A stretch of 31,630 bases of DNA. It comes from a virus. Numbering within the stretch: the first letter of the stretch is position 1; each line of letters begins with the position of its first letter. Shown here piece after piece: positions 2,111 to 14,331 of this stretch. Position numbers and translations under genes: made by a program. Below the pieces are notes generated by a model. The model was not told the DNA's origin, did no database searches, and saw only the letters and a list, made by a program, of their open reading frames with translations. Where the stretch lies: positions 1-31,630 of the IMG/VR virus record IMGVR_UViG_3300029319_000279; one strand, 5' to 3'.

Positions 2111-2409
2111 TACTTACTCCTTATCTCTAATGCTTGCAGTTCTAATCTTTTATTTTTTGTATATGTTGTCTGCTGACTCTTTGTCATCTCAAGCCAACAC
2201 TCTGGAAGCGATGAAACTCTAGTATCATAACCGCCGGCTATGCCACAAAATTCTCTTTGCTCACCATCAAAATCTCTAATTTCTGGATTGTAGGTTGTAA
2301 AACCACAAAAACCACAGCTTTTTCCTGTCTTGCTACAAATTTGAAACATTGGTGTTAAAAAACCCCCTCTATTCTCCCGTATTTCGCTGTAAAATAAATT
2401 CTTTGACAT
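2110..2409 (-). CDS. Cys-containing hypothetical protein, 99 aa
   Basis: I do not recognise the family. The protein has five cysteines, at residues 25, 32, 35, 55 and 71, of which CSKTGKSCGFC (25-35) looks like part of a metal site, possibly zinc. There is no signal peptide or membrane segment. The start at 2409 has only a weak upstream AGGCG. It lies just downstream of the hairpin at 2437-2460, so its expression probably depends on read-through of that hairpin or on an unseen promoter, and it is followed with a one-base TAGTG overlap by the 65-residue gene. Confidence 0.65.
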   Translation of the reverse strand: MSKNLFYSEIRENRGGFLTPMFQICSKTGKSCGFCGFTTYNPEIRDFDGEQREFCGIAGGYDTRVSSLPECWLEMTKSQQTTYTKNKRLELQALEIRSK

Positions 2410-2436
2410 AAGTATCGCCTATTTAAAAGGTATTGA

Positions 2437-2460
2437 ATAAGGGGGCCGTAGCCCCCTTAT
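2437..2460 (-). terminator. Perfect 10-bp GC-rich hairpin, probable terminator
   Basis: ATAAGGGGGC and GCCCCCTTAT form a perfect 10-bp stem with a four-base loop. It lies between the stop of the gene ending at 2473 and the start at 2409. There is no long T run on either side, only TTATT in the leftward direction, so termination may be partial or bidirectional. Confidence 0.65.
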
Positions 2461-2472
2461 AATCAATCAGCA

Positions 2473-2685: not shown

Positions 2686-2710
2686 GCTGATCTCCTATTT
2701 ATGAGATGGC

Positions 2711-2920
2711 TCAGTTTCGGTCTTCTTTTAGCCAACCGAAGGAAACGCTTTCGTCATCCTTTAACCTACTCCTAAGCCATCTCGTTTCTTTGATATGTTG
2801 TCTTTCTAGTTGTCTCATTCTATGATAGGCAGGGCCATTTTGTTTTATGGTGTTTTCTTTTAACATCCTCTTATACACAGAAATGATTCCTCTTCTTTTT
2901 AATTCGTTACTATCCCTCAT
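2711..2920 (-). CDS. Basic small hypothetical protein, 69 aa
   Basis: I do not recognise this protein. It is rich in Arg and Lys and probably all-helical (MRQLERQHIKETRWLRSRLK), so nucleic acid binding is possible but unproven. The frame is open to a TTG at 2929, but that TTG sits two bases from the AAGGAA sequence; the ATG at 2920 has AAGGAA about ten bases upstream and is preferred. It overlaps the end of the resolvase-like gene by 11 bases and is the distal member of the overlapping chain that runs from 5746 down to here. Confidence 0.65.
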   Translation of the reverse strand: MRDSNELKRRGIISVYKRMLKENTIKQNGPAYHRMRQLERQHIKETRWLRSRLKDDESVSFGWLKEDRN

Positions 2921-3647: not shown

Positions 3648-4126
3648 AATAGTTCTATTCCTTTTTTAAATGGCAAGTATGCATTGGTTCTTTTGATCTT
3701 GCCTCCATTGATTGTTTTTTGTGTTGTTGTATTTCTAACGTCAAAGTCAAACAAAAAGTTCCCATAACTATCTGTTATTTTCCAATACATAACTACCTGA
3801 TCTTTGATTAAGTACAGAAAACCAAGATAGGGAACTCGTAGCATTTCTGAAAGTCGCTTGCCGTCCATAATTTTATCAAACGTCACAAGCCAAGAGCCAA
3901 AGTTTCGTAACTCCATCAAGCTCAGGTCTCTACATTTAGATTCAAAGATACCTGACAGCTCATTGTTTTTTATGATAATGCCGTCCACCTTAGCATCTGT
4001 ATCCTTTTTTGTCTCCACCAGTGTAGAGTTGCTTTTGTGTTTGTTGCAGATACTGTGCCTAATTCTGTCTAGCATTTCTCTTTCATACTCTAATGACTTC
4101 TGTCCCTTCTTTGTAAGTATATCCAT
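3644..4126 (-). CDS. PD-(D/E)XK nuclease-like protein, 160 aa
   Basis: The central part has the nuclease core signature: KVDGIII (D48) followed 14 residues later by FESKCRD (E62, K64), that is D-Xn-E-x-K, with an upstream Glu-rich helix (LEYEREMLDRI) that could supply the first acidic residue. This pattern is shared by restriction-endonuclease-fold enzymes that cut DNA. The C-terminal half (LGFLYLIKDQVVMYWKI) looks like the further strands of the fold. The exact family and substrate are not evident; a phage repair or resolvase function is an inference. The gene starts in TAATG overlap with the SSB-like gene; GGAGG lies upstream inside that gene's end. Confidence 0.7.
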   Translation of the reverse strand: MDILTKKGQKSLEYEREMLDRIRHSICNKHKSNSTLVETKKDTDAKVDGIIIKNNELSGIFESKCRDLSLMELRNFGSWLVTFDKIMDGKRLSEMLRVPYLGFLYLIKDQVVMYWKITDSYGNFLFDFDVRNTTTQKTINGGKIKRTNAYLPFKKGIELL

Positions 4127-4602
4127 TAGAATGGTACCTCCGCAGATTGAATTAGTTGTATTGTTCTTGCCACAGGGTACCTGACCTCTGAGTCCAAGTC
4201 ATTGTAAAATGTTTTCATGGTTACATCTATCAAAACCTTAGCACCTTTTATGTCAGGCAGATAAAGGAAGGGCAGTTGCCCACCCTGTCCTTTATCCTTG
4301 CGGAGTTGCATAATAGATAAGAACTGAGCAAAGCCCCAGTTCTTTCTATGTTCGTATAATTGACCATCTACCTTCTTGTAGCGAAACACACCATTGTCCT
4401 TGACAGTACATGATTCATACTCAGGGTGCTCCTTTCCATCAACTTCGTATTCGGGTTTGAATACATCTGCCACATACCTACCAAACCTAACATTTTCAGA
4501 TGTGTCCATTCCTACGATACTAGCTGTGTATCTACCAGTAGGTACCGATCTTGTAAACTGACTCTCGTCAGCAGGGTAATATGCATCTCCTATGTCTACC
4601 AT
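4126..4602 (-). CDS. Probable single-stranded DNA-binding (SSB-like / DUF669-like) protein, 158 aa
   Basis: The protein opens with MVDIGDAYYPADESQF, has a strand-rich body (GRYTASIVGMD, VLIDVTMKTFYNDL) and ends SAEVPF. The short acidic-hydrophobic tail resembles the D-x-x-P-F tip of bacterial and phage SSB proteins that recruits repair partners, and the neighbourhood (Cas4-like nuclease, resolvase-like protein) is typical for a phage recombination module. The body is not a textbook OB fold that I can prove by eye, so this is a moderate call. Its start lies two bases after the preceding stop and has no clear ribosome site, which suggests coupled translation. Confidence 0.5.
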   Translation of the reverse strand: MVDIGDAYYPADESQFTRSVPTGRYTASIVGMDTSENVRFGRYVADVFKPEYEVDGKEHPEYESCTVKDNGVFRYKKVDGQLYEHRKNWGFAQFLSIMQLRKDKGQGGQLPFLYLPDIKGAKVLIDVTMKTFYNDLDSEVRYPVARTIQLIQSAEVPF

Positions 4603-4604
4603 GC

Positions 4605-5021
4605 TTAGAAGTGTTTCATTACCGCAATTTTATCTAAGCAAGCCTGAAGGTTGTCAACAGTAATGTTGCCTTGTTTCAGTTGGTATAGGACTTTGTTCTT
4701 GTCCTTCTGTCCCAATGTCTTTACAGCTTTATTGATTTCATTCTTAACATAATCTTCATCTGTTTCTTTTACCACTTCTCCATCAAACTTATCAATAATC
4801 TCTTTCTTGACCTCTTCACTGGACATAGCCTTTCTTTCACTGGCCTGTTCCAGTATGTCCTTGATGCCATCGTAGCCGTGAATGATAAACTGCACCCACC
4901 GCTCCATCAATCGCATGTTCTCTTCATTGAGCTCCATGCCTTTGCCAAAGGCTTCTACTGCAATACCGTGCCGTATCTTACCTTCGGTTATCTTATCCCA
5001 ATCGGGTTGTTGATCGCTCAT
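4605..5021 (-). CDS. Conserved-type phage hypothetical protein, 138 aa
   Basis: I do not know its function. The N-terminus (WDKITEGKIRHGIAVEAFGK) has a G-K-x-R-H-G-x-A pattern that I associate with small phage proteins encoded next to Cas4-like or RecB-like nucleases. The remainder is helical, acidic and lysine-rich, ending NLQACLDKIAVMKHF. Its ATG overlaps the TGA of the Cas4-like gene (ATGA), so the two are almost certainly translated together. A role as partner of the nuclease or of the SSB-like protein is inference from position. Confidence 0.65.
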   Translation of the reverse strand: MSDQQPDWDKITEGKIRHGIAVEAFGKGMELNEENMRLMERWVQFIIHGYDGIKDILEQASERKAMSSEEVKKEIIDKFDGEVVKETDEDYVKNEINKAVKTLGQKDKNKVLYQLKQGNITVDNLQACLDKIAVMKHF

Positions 5022-5746
5022 AGATCATCTCCTTTCTCTTTGAGTCCTCCACCACATACCTGATAGAAGTTGCAGTACTTGGGATTACATTCCCATTTGT
5101 ACACTGGTGCGACTCCTAGTTCCAGTGGTGGATTTCCTTTTTCAAATATCTTGTTGACATCGTGCCAGTATTCTTTGGCCTTGTCTATGTATGAGGTAGG
5201 TACAACCTTCTCCCTCATCCTTGAATTATCTTTGTTATAATATAGTAACGCCAGTTTCTTCAATCGGTTCCCAGATTCTTTTTCATACCACCATCCGTAA
5301 GTACCAAGCTGTAAGTTGTAATTAACTGGTTGGTCAGGGTCAGGGTTACGACCAAACAAACCTTTCCACTTCCAAGCATTACAGGTCTTGATGTCATACA
5401 ATGCATCATCTTCTACGATTATTACATCTAGGAATCCCCTTACGTTTACCTCAGGTATTTGTATCTCACGTTCTATCATTATCTGAGAACCATTGAGACT
5501 TGCATAATCTATTAGTGCTTCCTGAATATCATTGTGTACCAAGTCTCCAAGCCTGAATAGTCTCAGGGTATCATCATCTACTTCTTTAGGTTCTACTTCT
5601 GCAACGTGTTGAAAGTAATGTTTCCGCATACACATTCCTGAAGCTGAACCATGAAACCACTTCTCATTACCCTGATATCTTTTCTTGTAATGAAGGTTAT
5701 TACCTTTGCGTAACCATTCGTGATATATCTTTTGTATGTCTAGCAT
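5018..5746 (-). CDS. Cas4/RecB-like PD-(D/E)XK exonuclease with Fe-S cysteines, 242 aa
   Basis: The nuclease motifs appear in order: RLGDLVHNDI (H71), RGFLDVII (D107), LYDIKT (D118, K120) and LQLGTYGWWY (Q146), which is the RecB-family pattern with D-x-K in place of E-x-K. Four cysteines, C39 in the N-terminal part and C220, C225 and C231 near the end, have the spacing used by Cas4 and AddB proteins to hold a 4Fe-4S cluster. Such phage enzymes trim DNA ends for recombination or repair; there is no CRISPR array here, so an adaptation role is not suggested. It has AAAGGA just upstream and heads an overlapping chain of eight genes. Its leader contains the paired structure at 5772-5854. Confidence 0.85.
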   Translation of the reverse strand: MLDIQKIYHEWLRKGNNLHYKKRYQGNEKWFHGSASGMCMRKHYFQHVAEVEPKEVDDDTLRLFRLGDLVHNDIQEALIDYASLNGSQIMIEREIQIPEVNVRGFLDVIIVEDDALYDIKTCNAWKWKGLFGRNPDPDQPVNYNLQLGTYGWWYEKESGNRLKKLALLYYNKDNSRMREKVVPTSYIDKAKEYWHDVNKIFEKGNPPLELGVAPVYKWECNPKYCNFYQVCGGGLKEKGDDL

Positions 5747-5771
5747 ATTGTTTCCTTTAGTATGTAGGGAG

Positions 5772-5854
5772 GACGGGGCAAGTAAGATGTGTAGTTGTGA
5801 GCGGTCGGAAACAAATGGAGTGAAATATAACCGACCTTGTACCTGCCCCGTGTC
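5772..5854 (-). promoter_or_regulatory. Nested two-stem RNA structure in the leader of the Cas4-like gene
   Basis: On the minus strand GGGGCAGGTA (5849-5840) pairs with TACTTGCCCC (5784-5775) over ten positions with one G-U, and inside it GGTCGG (5836-5831) pairs perfectly with CCGACC (5808-5803) around a 22-base loop. A further GAC/GTC pair extends the outer stem after a short bulge. There is no T run after it, so a simple terminator is not the best explanation. It sits between the stop at 5860 and the Cas4-like start at 5746, with about 25 bases between stem and start. Confidence 0.6.
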
Positions 5855-5859
5855 ATCAT

Positions 5860-6060
5860 TTAATCTTTGTATTCTAGTACGTCTTTGTCTTTAGAGAACA
5901 GCGTGATCTCGATAGTTTCACCCGACTCTGTTTTGACATGCATCGTTCTAAAGTATTTATTATTAGGGTTTAGAGAATCTAACTTGGTAGTTTCTTCTAT
6001 CTCCACAGACTCTACCTTGTGTATACTAACCTCTTGCCCTGTTCCTAGTTGTAAGTTCAT
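5860..6060 (-). CDS. Small hypothetical protein, 66 aa
   Basis: I do not recognise this protein. It looks like a small all-beta domain (QEVSIHKVESVEIEE, RTMHVKTESGETIEITLFS), acidic, without cysteines or membrane segments. The start at 6060 has AGGAAAGGA directly upstream and lies inside the end of the preceding gene (35-base overlap). The structured leader of the Cas4-like gene follows its stop. Confidence 0.7.
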   Translation of the reverse strand: MNLQLGTGQEVSIHKVESVEIEETTKLDSLNPNNKYFRTMHVKTESGETIEITLFSKDKDVLEYKD

Positions 6061-6268
6061 TCCTTTCCTCTTTTTGGTTTTGTGTAGCCCACTTATCTAA
6101 CTCTGTTAATTCCTCTGCCTCTGCTCTTGCAATGTGATCTAAAGCAGACCTTAGTCCACATATCTCTGCAAAGTAATAGTCATTTCTAGGGTTAGTCTCC
6201 CAGTGTTCTTCCACACGTTTAATATCCTGTTTAATCCTGTACTTTAACTTGTTCAGTGTTGCGAACAT
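6026..6268 (-). CDS. Helical hypothetical protein, 80 aa
   Basis: I do not recognise this protein. It is helical and charged (LNKLKYRIKQDIKRVEEHWE; LRSALDHIARAEAEELTEL). Three ATGs stand in a row at 6274, 6271 and 6268; the third is chosen because AGGAG ends six bases upstream of it, whereas it touches the first. The gene overlaps the one before it by about 38 bases and the one after by 35. Confidence 0.65.
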   Translation of the reverse strand: MFATLNKLKYRIKQDIKRVEEHWETNPRNDYYFAEICGLRSALDHIARAEAEELTELDKWATQNQKEERNELTTRNRARG

Positions 6269-6434
6269 CATCATCTCCTTTTATGTCGTATATGTCTCCA
6301 ATGTCGTATGTGTATCCTGTATCGGGATCATACATTATGGGTACCTTGATGTATCTCTCGCCGTTGAATCCATGATACTCATAACGTATTTTAAGTTTTG
6401 CTTGAAGTCTTTTATTCATTGTTGTTTCTTTCAT
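6231..6434 (-). CDS. Small hypothetical protein, 67 aa
   Basis: I do not recognise this protein. It has a basic N-terminus (MNKRLQAKLKIRYEYHGFNG) and an acidic end rich in Asp and Tyr (YDPDTGYTYDIGDIYDIKGD), probably a compact beta structure. Of several possible starts the ATG at 6434 is chosen because it overlaps the TGA of the HNH gene as ATGA, with AGG eight bases upstream; the GTG at 6443 has no better signal. Confidence 0.65.
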   Translation of the reverse strand: MKETTMNKRLQAKLKIRYEYHGFNGERYIKVPIMYDPDTGYTYDIGDIYDIKGDDDVRNTEQVKVQD

Positions 6435-6961
6435 ACTGTACACCTGTAACGCTCATCCTTATTGTAAAGTTCCAAATTTTCTTCATATTCTTTTATAATA
6501 TCTTGAACGTCTGTATGGTACTTAAAATCTTTAAATGTTTTTATCTGATGACAGTTGCGACACCTGACCACACACTTCTCTATCTCTCTCTTGATCGTAC
6601 TCCACTTGTACCCGTTACGAACTAGATACCCAACTCCTGCACCTCTCTGATGTTTGATACTACGCTTGATTCCTGTAACATGATCGAACTCCAGAACTCG
6701 TGGGTCTTGTGTGCCACAGTCCACACATCCTTTTGAAAAGTACAGTTCTAATATTTTTTTAAAGTTGGCTCGTTTCACTCTTGCTTTTCTAGTATAATTT
6801 TTTTCTATTATTTTTTTCTTATTTTTTTTGTACCAGTTACGATTGTGGTATTTCTTTTGACACACCTTGCATTTACTTTGTCTGCCATCTTTCTTTTGAC
6901 GATTCTTATAGAAGTCTTTTATTGGTTTTTTGGTTTTGCATCTTCCACATCTTTTTAACAT
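6431..6961 (-). CDS. HNH endonuclease with N-terminal zinc finger, 176 aa
   Basis: Counted from the ATG, the first 40 residues hold two CxxC pairs (CGRC and CKVC), the usual zinc finger of free-standing phage HNH enzymes, followed by a very basic linker. The HNH core is then complete: CVDCG, LEFDHV with the Asp-His pair, and CVVRCRNCHQ with the final cysteine pair and His. Enzymes of this kind nick or cut DNA; many are mobile homing-type endonucleases. The frame begins at a TTG (6964), but the next codon, ATG at 6961, is better placed after GGGG. The gene is AT-rich at its lysine-rich linker and ends in an ATGA overlap with its neighbour, so it is either long established or was inserted precisely. 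Confidence 0.85.
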   Translation of the reverse strand: MLKRCGRCKTKKPIKDFYKNRQKKDGRQSKCKVCQKKYHNRNWYKKNKKKIIEKNYTRKARVKRANFKKILELYFSKGCVDCGTQDPRVLEFDHVTGIKRSIKHQRGAGVGYLVRNGYKWSTIKREIEKCVVRCRNCHQIKTFKDFKYHTDVQDIIKEYEENLELYNKDERYRCTV

Positions 6962-7018
6962 CAACTACCCCGCAAGTTATTGATTATTAGGACTATATGC
7001 TACCTAAAATTTTAAACC

Positions 7019-7222
7019 CTACTCCTCCTCATCTGCAACATCCCAAAGTGTTTGCTTGTCCAGTACCTCTTCCACAGTTTCATCCTGTACGTCAAACTCC
7101 CAGTACTTCTCATCATCTATGATGTACCCAATGGCGTTCTCTTTCAGAAGCTCCTCAGCTTCCTTAACTGAGTGTGCTTCTATAAAGCCACTCGATGTTA
7201 TTGTCCAATGATATGTTTTCAT
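7019..7222 (-). CDS. Small acidic hypothetical protein, 67 aa
   Basis: I do not recognise this protein. It begins MKTYHWTITSSGFIEAHSVK, continues with EAEELLKENA and ends in a strongly acidic tail (DVADEEE). The first half, a strand followed by an S-x-x-E-A-E-x-L-L helix, is a common layout of small phage proteins of unknown role. AAAGGA lies seven bases before the ATG. The GC-rich hairpin at 7240-7259 sits in its leader. Confidence 0.7.
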   Translation of the reverse strand: MKTYHWTITSSGFIEAHSVKEAEELLKENAIGYIIDDEKYWEFDVQDETVEEVLDKQTLWDVADEEE

Positions 7223-7239
7223 TTTATATCCTTTGTTAT

Positions 7240-7259
7240 GGGGCGGGTTTCCCCGCCCC
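7240..7259 (-). terminator. GC-rich hairpin, terminator or attenuator
   Basis: GGGGCGGG and CCCGCCCC form a perfect 8-bp stem with a TTTC loop (GAAA on the minus strand, a stable tetraloop). It lies between the stop at 7268 and the start at 7222. No T tract follows in the leftward direction, so it may only reduce transcription of the downstream genes or protect the RNA end. Confidence 0.55.
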
Positions 7260-7267
7260 TGTTTAGT

Positions 7268-12555: not shown

Positions 12556-12585
12556 TTTTTTTACTCCTTTGTTTGTGTTATATAT

Positions 12586-12617
12586 ACTATACTATTTAAC
12601 TGTGAAAAAGTTCCCAA
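12586..12617 (-). promoter_or_regulatory. Early promoter copy F (GGAACT-N17-TATAGT)
   Basis: TTGGGAACT (12617-12609) is followed after 17 bases by TATAGT (12591-12586), with further TATATA just downstream. It precedes the leader ACAAAGGAGTAAAA and the ATG at 12555. Confidence 0.75.
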
Positions 12618-12682
12618 TATTTAAAAAAAAAAAATATAAACTTTTTTTGGGGGGTTGTGTGTGGGGGTTGTGGTATTCCTTG

Positions 12683-12701
12683 AAACTATATAATATAGTT
12701 T
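12683..12701. repeat. Perfect palindrome AAACTATA-TAA-TATAGTTT
   Basis: Two eight-base arms pair perfectly around TAA. The form is that of a dimer-protein binding site. It lies upstream of promoter F, far enough (about 70 bases) that it may act on it from a distance or on nothing seen here. Confidence 0.5.
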
Positions 12702-12808
12702 ATTTATGAGAGGTTATTTACTTACACAAATTACACTTAATTATATGAATTGTTTTAGTTATGAATCCCCCTTTATTTATACAGCCAATAGAAAACCATA
12801 TAAAAAAG

Positions 12809-12866
12809 TGAGTTACCTTCGTTAAGTAGTTATAAAATAATGAGTTACCTTCGTTAAGTAGTTATA
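12809..12866. repeat. Tandem direct repeat, 2 x 26 bases with period 32
   Basis: Two identical 26-base copies (12809-12834 and 12841-12866) contain AGTTACCTTCGTTAAGTAGT as core and are separated by AAATAA. The exact identity and three-turn spacing in a non-coding gap indicate a selected binding site or a recent duplication. Confidence 0.8.
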
Positions 12867-12931
12867 TTATTATATATAAAAAAATTTTTAAAATAAAAAA
12901 AAATTACAAAAATAAAAAAAATTAGAGAAAA

Positions 12932-12949
12932 GGGAGCATTTCTGCTCCC
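12932..12949 (-). terminator. Rho-independent terminator of the DUF932 unit
   Basis: GGGAGCA and TGCTCCC pair perfectly with a GAAA loop on the minus strand, followed by TTTTCTCTAATTTTTTTT. It lies 15 bases past the stop at 12965 and is the clearest intrinsic terminator in the window. Confidence 0.9.
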
Positions 12950-12964
12950 CATCTCTGTTCTGTG

Positions 12965-14218: not shown

Positions 14219-14300
14219 CCCTATAGTACATTGGTCATTATAGGGCGGCTACTGGCTACGGTATCTCACGCATTGACCGTATAGTTCACGACCAGTGGCC
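14219..14300 (-). promoter_or_regulatory. Folded leader: two hairpin systems upstream of the first leftward gene
   Basis: CCCTATA (14219-14225) pairs with TATAGGG (14239-14245). Next to it GGCTACTGG (14247-14255) pairs with CCAGTGGCC (14292-14300), with one mismatch on the plus strand that becomes a G-U or A-C choice by strand. Inside it TACGGT (14257-14262) pairs perfectly with ACCGTA (14276-14281). All lie between promoter H and the start at 14189, within the expected 5' leader. Confidence 0.6.
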
Positions 14301-14331
14301 TATTCTAAAATTGTCAAAAAACTCTATACTA

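Follow-up and report, generated by a model that had tools for sequence, protein, structure and literature searches.

Why does a gap of 113 nt (positions 5747-5859) open in front of a Cas4-like nuclease gene within a phage gene row of packed same-strand ORFs, and what does the structured element that fills most of it do? The window analysed here is the 31,630-bp IMG/VR virus record IMGVR_UViG_3300029319_000279, taken at full length, and the gap lies in it between ORF F8 and the nuclease ORF, F0 (Table 1). A first-pass annotation had placed a nested two-stem structure in the gap and suggested that it was a regulatory RNA element or a processing site for an eight-gene recombination cassette.

Synteny across 27 loci gives the gene order of the window as F16-F6 (HNH)-F19-F7-F8-element-F0-F2-F1-F11-F3-F14-F4-F12-F5, followed by a terminator-like stem; single genes of this row differ among relatives. 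We infer that the minus-strand row from F16 to F5 is one operon with a shared transcript, which is likely to end at the terminator-like stem. Just past that stem lies GCGATACTTATGTC (2405-2418, minus strand), possibly a promoter; a similar sequence is found in many relatives, and its recurrence within the window is not above chance. In the F0 nuclease, cysteines 39, 220, 225 and 231 are invariant in an alignment of 17 homologues. For F1, which lies inside the eight-gene block behind the element, an OB fold was assigned by reading of the predicted model (mean pLDDT 80.3); among solved structures it comes closest to PrgE (E 2.9e-3) and to ssDNA-binding proteins, and neither a structure match nor a sequence-family match reaches E 0.001. 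Solved structures gave no sequence match to F8 and no fold match at E 0.001, and a search for the identity of F2 and F8 led to no assignment. The phages that carry the element have no close relative found among named phages: a named-phage collection contains no DNA similar to window positions 5000-7000 and no relatives of the F0 nuclease, and the identity of TerL to that of named phages is always below 60% (about 25-26% among the matches listed). One relative comes from a MAG labelled Candidatus Marinimicrobia, on a contig of 9,565 bases that may be misbinned.

Table 1. Features of the gene row and of the structured element, in window coordinates
Feature	Position	Strand	Evidence
Intrinsic-terminator-like stem after F5	2432..2467	-	Fold
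Second structure, before F5: 12-bp outer stem, two inner hairpins	2703..2783	-	z -5.65
F1, predicted OB-fold ssDNA-binding-like protein	4126..4602	-	Structure model
F0, Cas4-like PD-(D/E)XK nuclease	5018..5746	-	PHROG 1706 (E 1.9e-21); PHROG 1990 (E 4.6e-11); Pfam PDDEXK_1 (E 2e-8)
26-nt leader with Shine-Dalgarno-like (SD) AAAGGA at 5753-5758, then nuclease ATG	5747..5772	-	
Complete structured RNA element, from one outer-stem arm to the other	5773..5851	-	Folds; covariation; covariance model score 86.5 bits
Outer stem 3' arm, 12 nt	5773..5784	-	Folds; covariation
Long unpaired 3' strand, 18 nt, with motif CACAACTACACATCT	5785..5802	-	Alignments; mean unpaired probability 0.82 (41 loci)
Inner stem 3' arm CCGACC	5803..5808	-	Folds; covariation
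U-rich apical loop with UCC, 22 nt	5809..5830	-	Aligned in 41 loci
Inner stem 5' arm GGTCGG	5831..5836	-	Folds; covariation
Outer stem 5' arm, 12 nt	5840..5851	-	Folds; pairs covary in relatives
F8, 66-aa ORF immediately upstream of the element in the window and many relatives	5860..6060	-	Synteny
F16 ORF	7019..7222	-	Start preceded by GC hairpin
Third structure, before F16: GC hairpin with GAAA loop, 8 bp	7240..7259	-	Folds

Read 5' to 3' on the minus strand, the element consists of a 12-bp outer stem (one G-U), a 3-nt linker, a 6-bp inner stem, a 22-nt loop and an 18-nt unpaired 3' strand. The minus strand of 5765-5860 has a minimum free energy (MFE) of -30.5 kcal/mol, against -17.55 (SD 3.01) for dinucleotide shuffles (z -4.30; none of 200 as stable), and the plus strand of the same stretch gives z -1.08. 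Among ten folded gaps (40-600 nt, between 351 and 15753) the element gap ranks third on the minus strand (z -3.99), after 7223-7267 (z -4.98) and the terminator gap 2410-2472 (z -4.26). Most of the first-pass description stands: the 6-bp inner stem, the 113-base gap and the absence of a T tract are borne out by fold and sequence, the proposed span of 5772-5854 nearly matches the 5773-5851 of the minus-strand fold, and the 10 bp given for the outer stem are present and extended by two closing pairs to 12. The likeness that had been seen to a structure at 14247-14300 is weak. The fold of 14230-14320 has a z-score of -1.67 on the plus strand and -1.19 on the minus strand, and among 26 contigs of relatives searched, some of them fragments, DNA similar to that region was found in two (E <1e-16) and matches of only 14-31 nt in eight. 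No U-tract follows the stem as it would in an intrinsic terminator, and a consensus scan of the gap detected neither a sigma70-like promoter nor a terminator.

The element is widespread among relatives of the window. A tblastn-confirmed scan of viral contigs yielded 61 loci bearing the nuclease, from which 48 upstream regions were taken (the window and 47 loci, without three loci truncated at the gene or 11 of a sister lineage). These regions contain 32 distinct elements, each of which by itself folds into an outer stem round an inner hairpin, with an extra hairpin in L037; continuous stem runs are 8-10 bp in some relatives, compared with 12 bp in the window. A covariance model built from nine sequences matched 47 of 62 sources at E <=1, once per source, namely the window and 46 of the 61 loci. 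The 15 sources that it did not match are three contigs that begin at the gene (L016, L045, L050), the expanded variant L037, and the sister lineage (L047-L049, L051-L057, L060). Further relatives came from the best 80 of 141 in an alignment-based scan and one from a genome scan; 22 of these loci were new, and seven carry the element immediately before the nuclease (an eighth match, in L224, is weak and on the opposite strand). The matches in these 46 and seven relatives rule out a remnant of a lost gene present only in this genome, a possibility that the first-pass annotation had raised. The distance from element to nuclease start is 18-29 nt in 41 loci. A three-way-junction form precedes the nuclease in L209. 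In eight loci with 57-59% nuclease identity (L228, L229, L231-L235, L237), neither visual inspection nor the model shows an element within the upstream 400 nt. As a separate observation, the L009 nuclease clusters with those of L015 and L021, yet its RNA element resembles those of L017 and L018, a mismatch that suggests recombination at the junction of element and nuclease.

The pairing, which the first-pass annotation had read from one sequence, covaries among relatives. Subtracting seven weak or duplicate matches (L052, L053, L055, L048, L224, L037 and a second one in L021) from 48 model matches leaves 41 elements. In the model-fitted alignment (31 distinct rows, 17 pairs), whose fitting to the structure biases it in favour of pairing counts, 94.6% of cells pair, against 77.4% when shuffled; 14 of the 17 pairs show change on both sides, against 10.2 in shuffles (2 of 500 as high), and 87 cells are altered on both sides, against 24.0. 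The covariation score is 0.532, compared with 0.222 for shuffles and at most 0.101 with the 3' partners slid. An unambiguous close pair agrees with this covariation: L026 and L029 have elements that are identical except at two mutually paired positions (G-C to A-U). At least 69 changes of state, one-sided changes included, are needed to account for the 17 pairs in the 41 elements on a quick tree of the nuclease (43 rows, with good support for 20 of 40 inner branches). Since its shape is kept by matching mutations, the element very probably acts as RNA. Non-standard cells comprise 31 G-U or U-G and nine A-C, with no C-A, and this excess favours an RNA of the minus strand, that is, of mRNA sense.

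Outside the stems, the 3' strand CACAACUACACAUCU is mostly unpaired and is conserved in most clades, not all: its sequence is quite different in L041/L043/L044/L204, L046 and L223, where the fold is retained. The conservation suggests a specific reader, whereas replacement of the strand with the fold kept speaks against a fixed one. Pairing of the strand with the leader and gene start is not above that of unmatched sets (p 0.27), nor is pairing of the apical loop with the strand (p 0.31). Sequestration of the SD was rejected, since the SD is about equally open in all three settings (mean unpaired probability over 41 elements 0.61 with the element, 0.62 without it and 0.57 with it shuffled). 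A resemblance between the unpaired strand and lambda boxA (ACACAU) was dropped on inspection by eye, the GCUCUU half not being conserved. A ribozyme was likewise dropped, on the absence of an Rfam match and the replacement of the unpaired strand in some clades.

What, then, would such an RNA do at this place? Our preferred explanation, a tentative one, is a cis-acting element of the mRNA, placed between cistrons, that would split the polycistron and serve to protect or process the 5' end of the nuclease mRNA. It would fold in the minus-strand mRNA between the F8 stop codon and the nuclease SD, marking the 5' boundary of the eight-gene block; an endoribonuclease might cut it, its stem might shield the new ends, or both, as at T7 RNase III sites, and the nuclease block would thereby gain separate mRNA stability and translation, with the conserved unpaired strand as a putative contact for a specific factor. 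The position at the head of the block, the flanking stop codon and open ribosome-binding site (RBS), the lack of promoter and terminator, and the sibling structures before F16 and F5 are best explained by a cis-acting mRNA element, a reading further supported by the covariation, the RNA-sense bias and the fixed position ahead of the start codon. The earlier suggestion of a regulatory or processing element for an eight-gene cassette fits well with the covarying pairing and the eight flanked ORFs; the kinship it proposed with the 14247-14300 structure is not supported.

T7 RNase III sites contain an asymmetric internal loop, and bacterial intercistronic or 5' stabiliser hairpins are stable stems between a stop codon and the next RBS. 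By analogy, the element may work like known phage intercistronic elements. It shares with the T7 sites (R1.1 and others) an irregular hairpin between phage genes, the asymmetric internal loop and, if the gene row is a single transcript, the presence of several such structures on it. Its setting among packed same-strand ORFs would place it between cistrons of a polycistronic mRNA if the transcript is shared as we suppose, the 12-bp outer stem of the window provides a duplex of at least about 12 bp, and the window has three intercistronic structures, one of 8 bp, on what would be a single transcript. It differs from the T7 sites in its long, mostly conserved unpaired strand and in strong covariation within one site family; its sister site before F16 has only 8 bp. 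An RNase III site is not known to need a long conserved unpaired sequence, and the strand thus counts against an RNase III-type reading. A passage of PMC9135205 counts 10 RNase III sites in T7, and one of PMC8708148 describes R1.1 cleavage as driving T7 mRNA maturation and protection and reports a 12-bp stem as enough in the smallest R1.1 derivative that is still cleaved. As the F16 hairpin falls below the length of that derivative, one enzyme may not serve all sites. Compared with the bacterial stabiliser hairpins, the architecture of the element is more complex and includes a conserved unpaired motif.

Apart from terminators, two further structure classes recur in the gene row, before F5 and before F16. 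Across 27 loci, 112 gaps measure 60-300 nt, a count that omits gaps hidden by upstream-extended ORF calls; the 16 pre-nuclease gaps have a mean z of -3.57, against -1.39 for the other 96. The structure before F5 overlaps the 3' end of F12 and stops 17 nt short of the F5 ATG; by reading of folds, 18 of the 23 other loci also have a long outer stem before F5, of different sequence and often enclosing a hairpin of the GGTTGGC type. The hairpin before F16 likewise stops 17 nt short of its ATG, and GC hairpins of this kind are found in 8 of 12 loci including the window, with GAAA or GCAA loops and a C-G to U-A change in some. In the window the F0 and F5 structures flank exactly eight ORFs, and the number of genes between the two varies in relatives. 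A broader reading, possible and on the doubtful side, is that a set of intercistronic elements, differing in sequence and sharing a layout (an outer stem whose end lies about 17-29 nt ahead of the start codon), cuts the early polycistron into separately controlled blocks; the F0 and F5 elements would define an eight-gene recombination mRNA, and a phage or host factor would read the unpaired strand. Division of the transcript is weakened as an explanation by the variable gene number between the F0 and F5 elements and by the absence of the element from the eight loci of 57-59% identity, L047-L049 and L212.

In sister lineages that lack the element at the nuclease, F7 abuts the nuclease directly, and structures lie further upstream. 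In L052-L054, L060 and L055/L056 a 14-bp outer stem before F7 encloses CCCCACAACTACTATACCTC or CTCCACGCTATACCTC without an inner hairpin, and in L051, L057, L216 and L224-L227 other long-stem hairpins precede F7. In L047-L049 and L212 the sequence examined upstream of F7 and the nuclease contains no element; L048 has other stems further upstream, including a GCAGGGCG/CGCCCTGC stem before the HNH-family F6 that was recognized by eye (model E 1.3) and is not the MFE fold of the tested stretch. We infer that the variant structures of the sister lineages are homologous to the element, and their location before F7 or F6 suggests that it is tied to the start of a gene block and not to a single gene. 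Two observations concern these leaders themselves. Upstream of F7 in L051, L057 and L224-L227, an upstream AGCAGAGT can by eye pair with ACTCTGCT in the next hairpin, and on the basis of this complementarity the leaders could switch between two folds. In L048, a gap of 79 nt that lies 461-382 nt upstream of the nuclease contains a long-stem structure (z -4.4), and after it comes a 45-aa ORF before F7.

The main rival to a cis-acting element that divides the mRNA is a translational operator, which we judge unlikely: a phage protein, for example F1, would bind the unpaired strand and spread over the RBS, in the manner of T4 gp32 and gp43, which according to a passage of PMC3014915 bind leader structures of their own mRNAs. 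The exposed strand, conserved in most clades, would suit such a protein, and F1, which by its predicted model resembles ssDNA-binding proteins, is encoded in the block behind the element; as with the T4 gene 32 and 43 operators, the RNA structure stands a few tens of nucleotides before a replication or recombination gene. However, the strand is replaced in the clades named above although the fold persists, and the folded part stops 26 nt before the ATG, clear of the SD, which is left open, so that the structure does not overlap the RBS, though a bound protein might still spread that far. A pseudoknot between loop and SD was also rejected, the loci's own pairs being no more stable than cross-locus pairs (p 0.74; 35 distinct loop/leader sets), and the first gene behind the element, unlike those of the T4 operators, encodes a nuclease.

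A translated leader is quite doubtful. Here a short ORF would run from the F8 stop codon through the element, and ribosomes would unfold the stem before reinitiating at the nuclease. In 32 of 41 elements an ATG does lie within 22 nt upstream of the stem; often it overlaps the F8 stop codon or directly adjoins it, and in all 32 the frame is open through the element. However, a mean of 2.32 of three frames is open across elements in any case, nine elements (L013, L030, L031, L036, L039, L158, L206-L208) have no such ATG, and the motif is read in all three frames depending on the locus. Close pairs give a nonsynonymous to synonymous ratio of 11:3 against an expected 3.15:1, from 14 codon changes only; with no constant frame and a near-neutral ratio, a small protein gene was rejected.

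Excision of the element from the mRNA as a trans-acting small RNA, whose unpaired strand would pair with host or phage RNA, is more doubtful again. The compact, stable fold and the exposed conserved strand would suit that role, but the element has no promoter or terminator of its own in the consensus scan, and its strong matches all occupy one place, with no other context in the material searched. A second model run against 37 whole records matched 30 at E <=1, of which 28 strongly (E <=6.5e-6), and no record was matched more than once. When viral contigs were scanned with CRCAACTACACATCT for other contexts (80 listed of 89 stretches), 79 new loci were obtained, of which 22 match the model, all of them, by contig name, on nuclease contigs already found. 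A ligand-sensing riboswitch for the nuclease genes is very improbable: a conserved leader structure does precede the SD, but neither SD sequestration nor a terminator provides an expression platform, the unpaired strand is swapped in some clades with the fold kept, and no Rfam riboswitch matches. That a DNA-level element (an origin, recombination or packaging site) extrudes here as a hairpin is barely credible, since despite its situation among recombination genes both the 31:9 asymmetry of G-U over A-C and the z-scores of the folds point to a single RNA strand and the position is tied to a stop codon and an SD.

The element adds a covariation-supported RNA family outside Rfam, attached to a Cas4-like nuclease and recombination block: the window and 13 related loci give no Rfam match at the gathering threshold (best permissive E 0.6 or worse), and the element is not described in the titles and abstract openings of the matches listed in a literature search on structured phage RNAs and on RNase III or intercistronic processing. 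If it does divide the mRNA, post-transcriptional control of the T7 and T4 kind would extend to the recombination operon of a far phage lineage. The conserved strand offers a handle for finding the factor that would read it, and the covariance model makes the element directly searchable in metatranscriptomes. Elsewhere in the window, a 409-nt AT-rich gap at 12556-12964 shows excess folding of the minus strand (z -3.02 in the ten-gap set).
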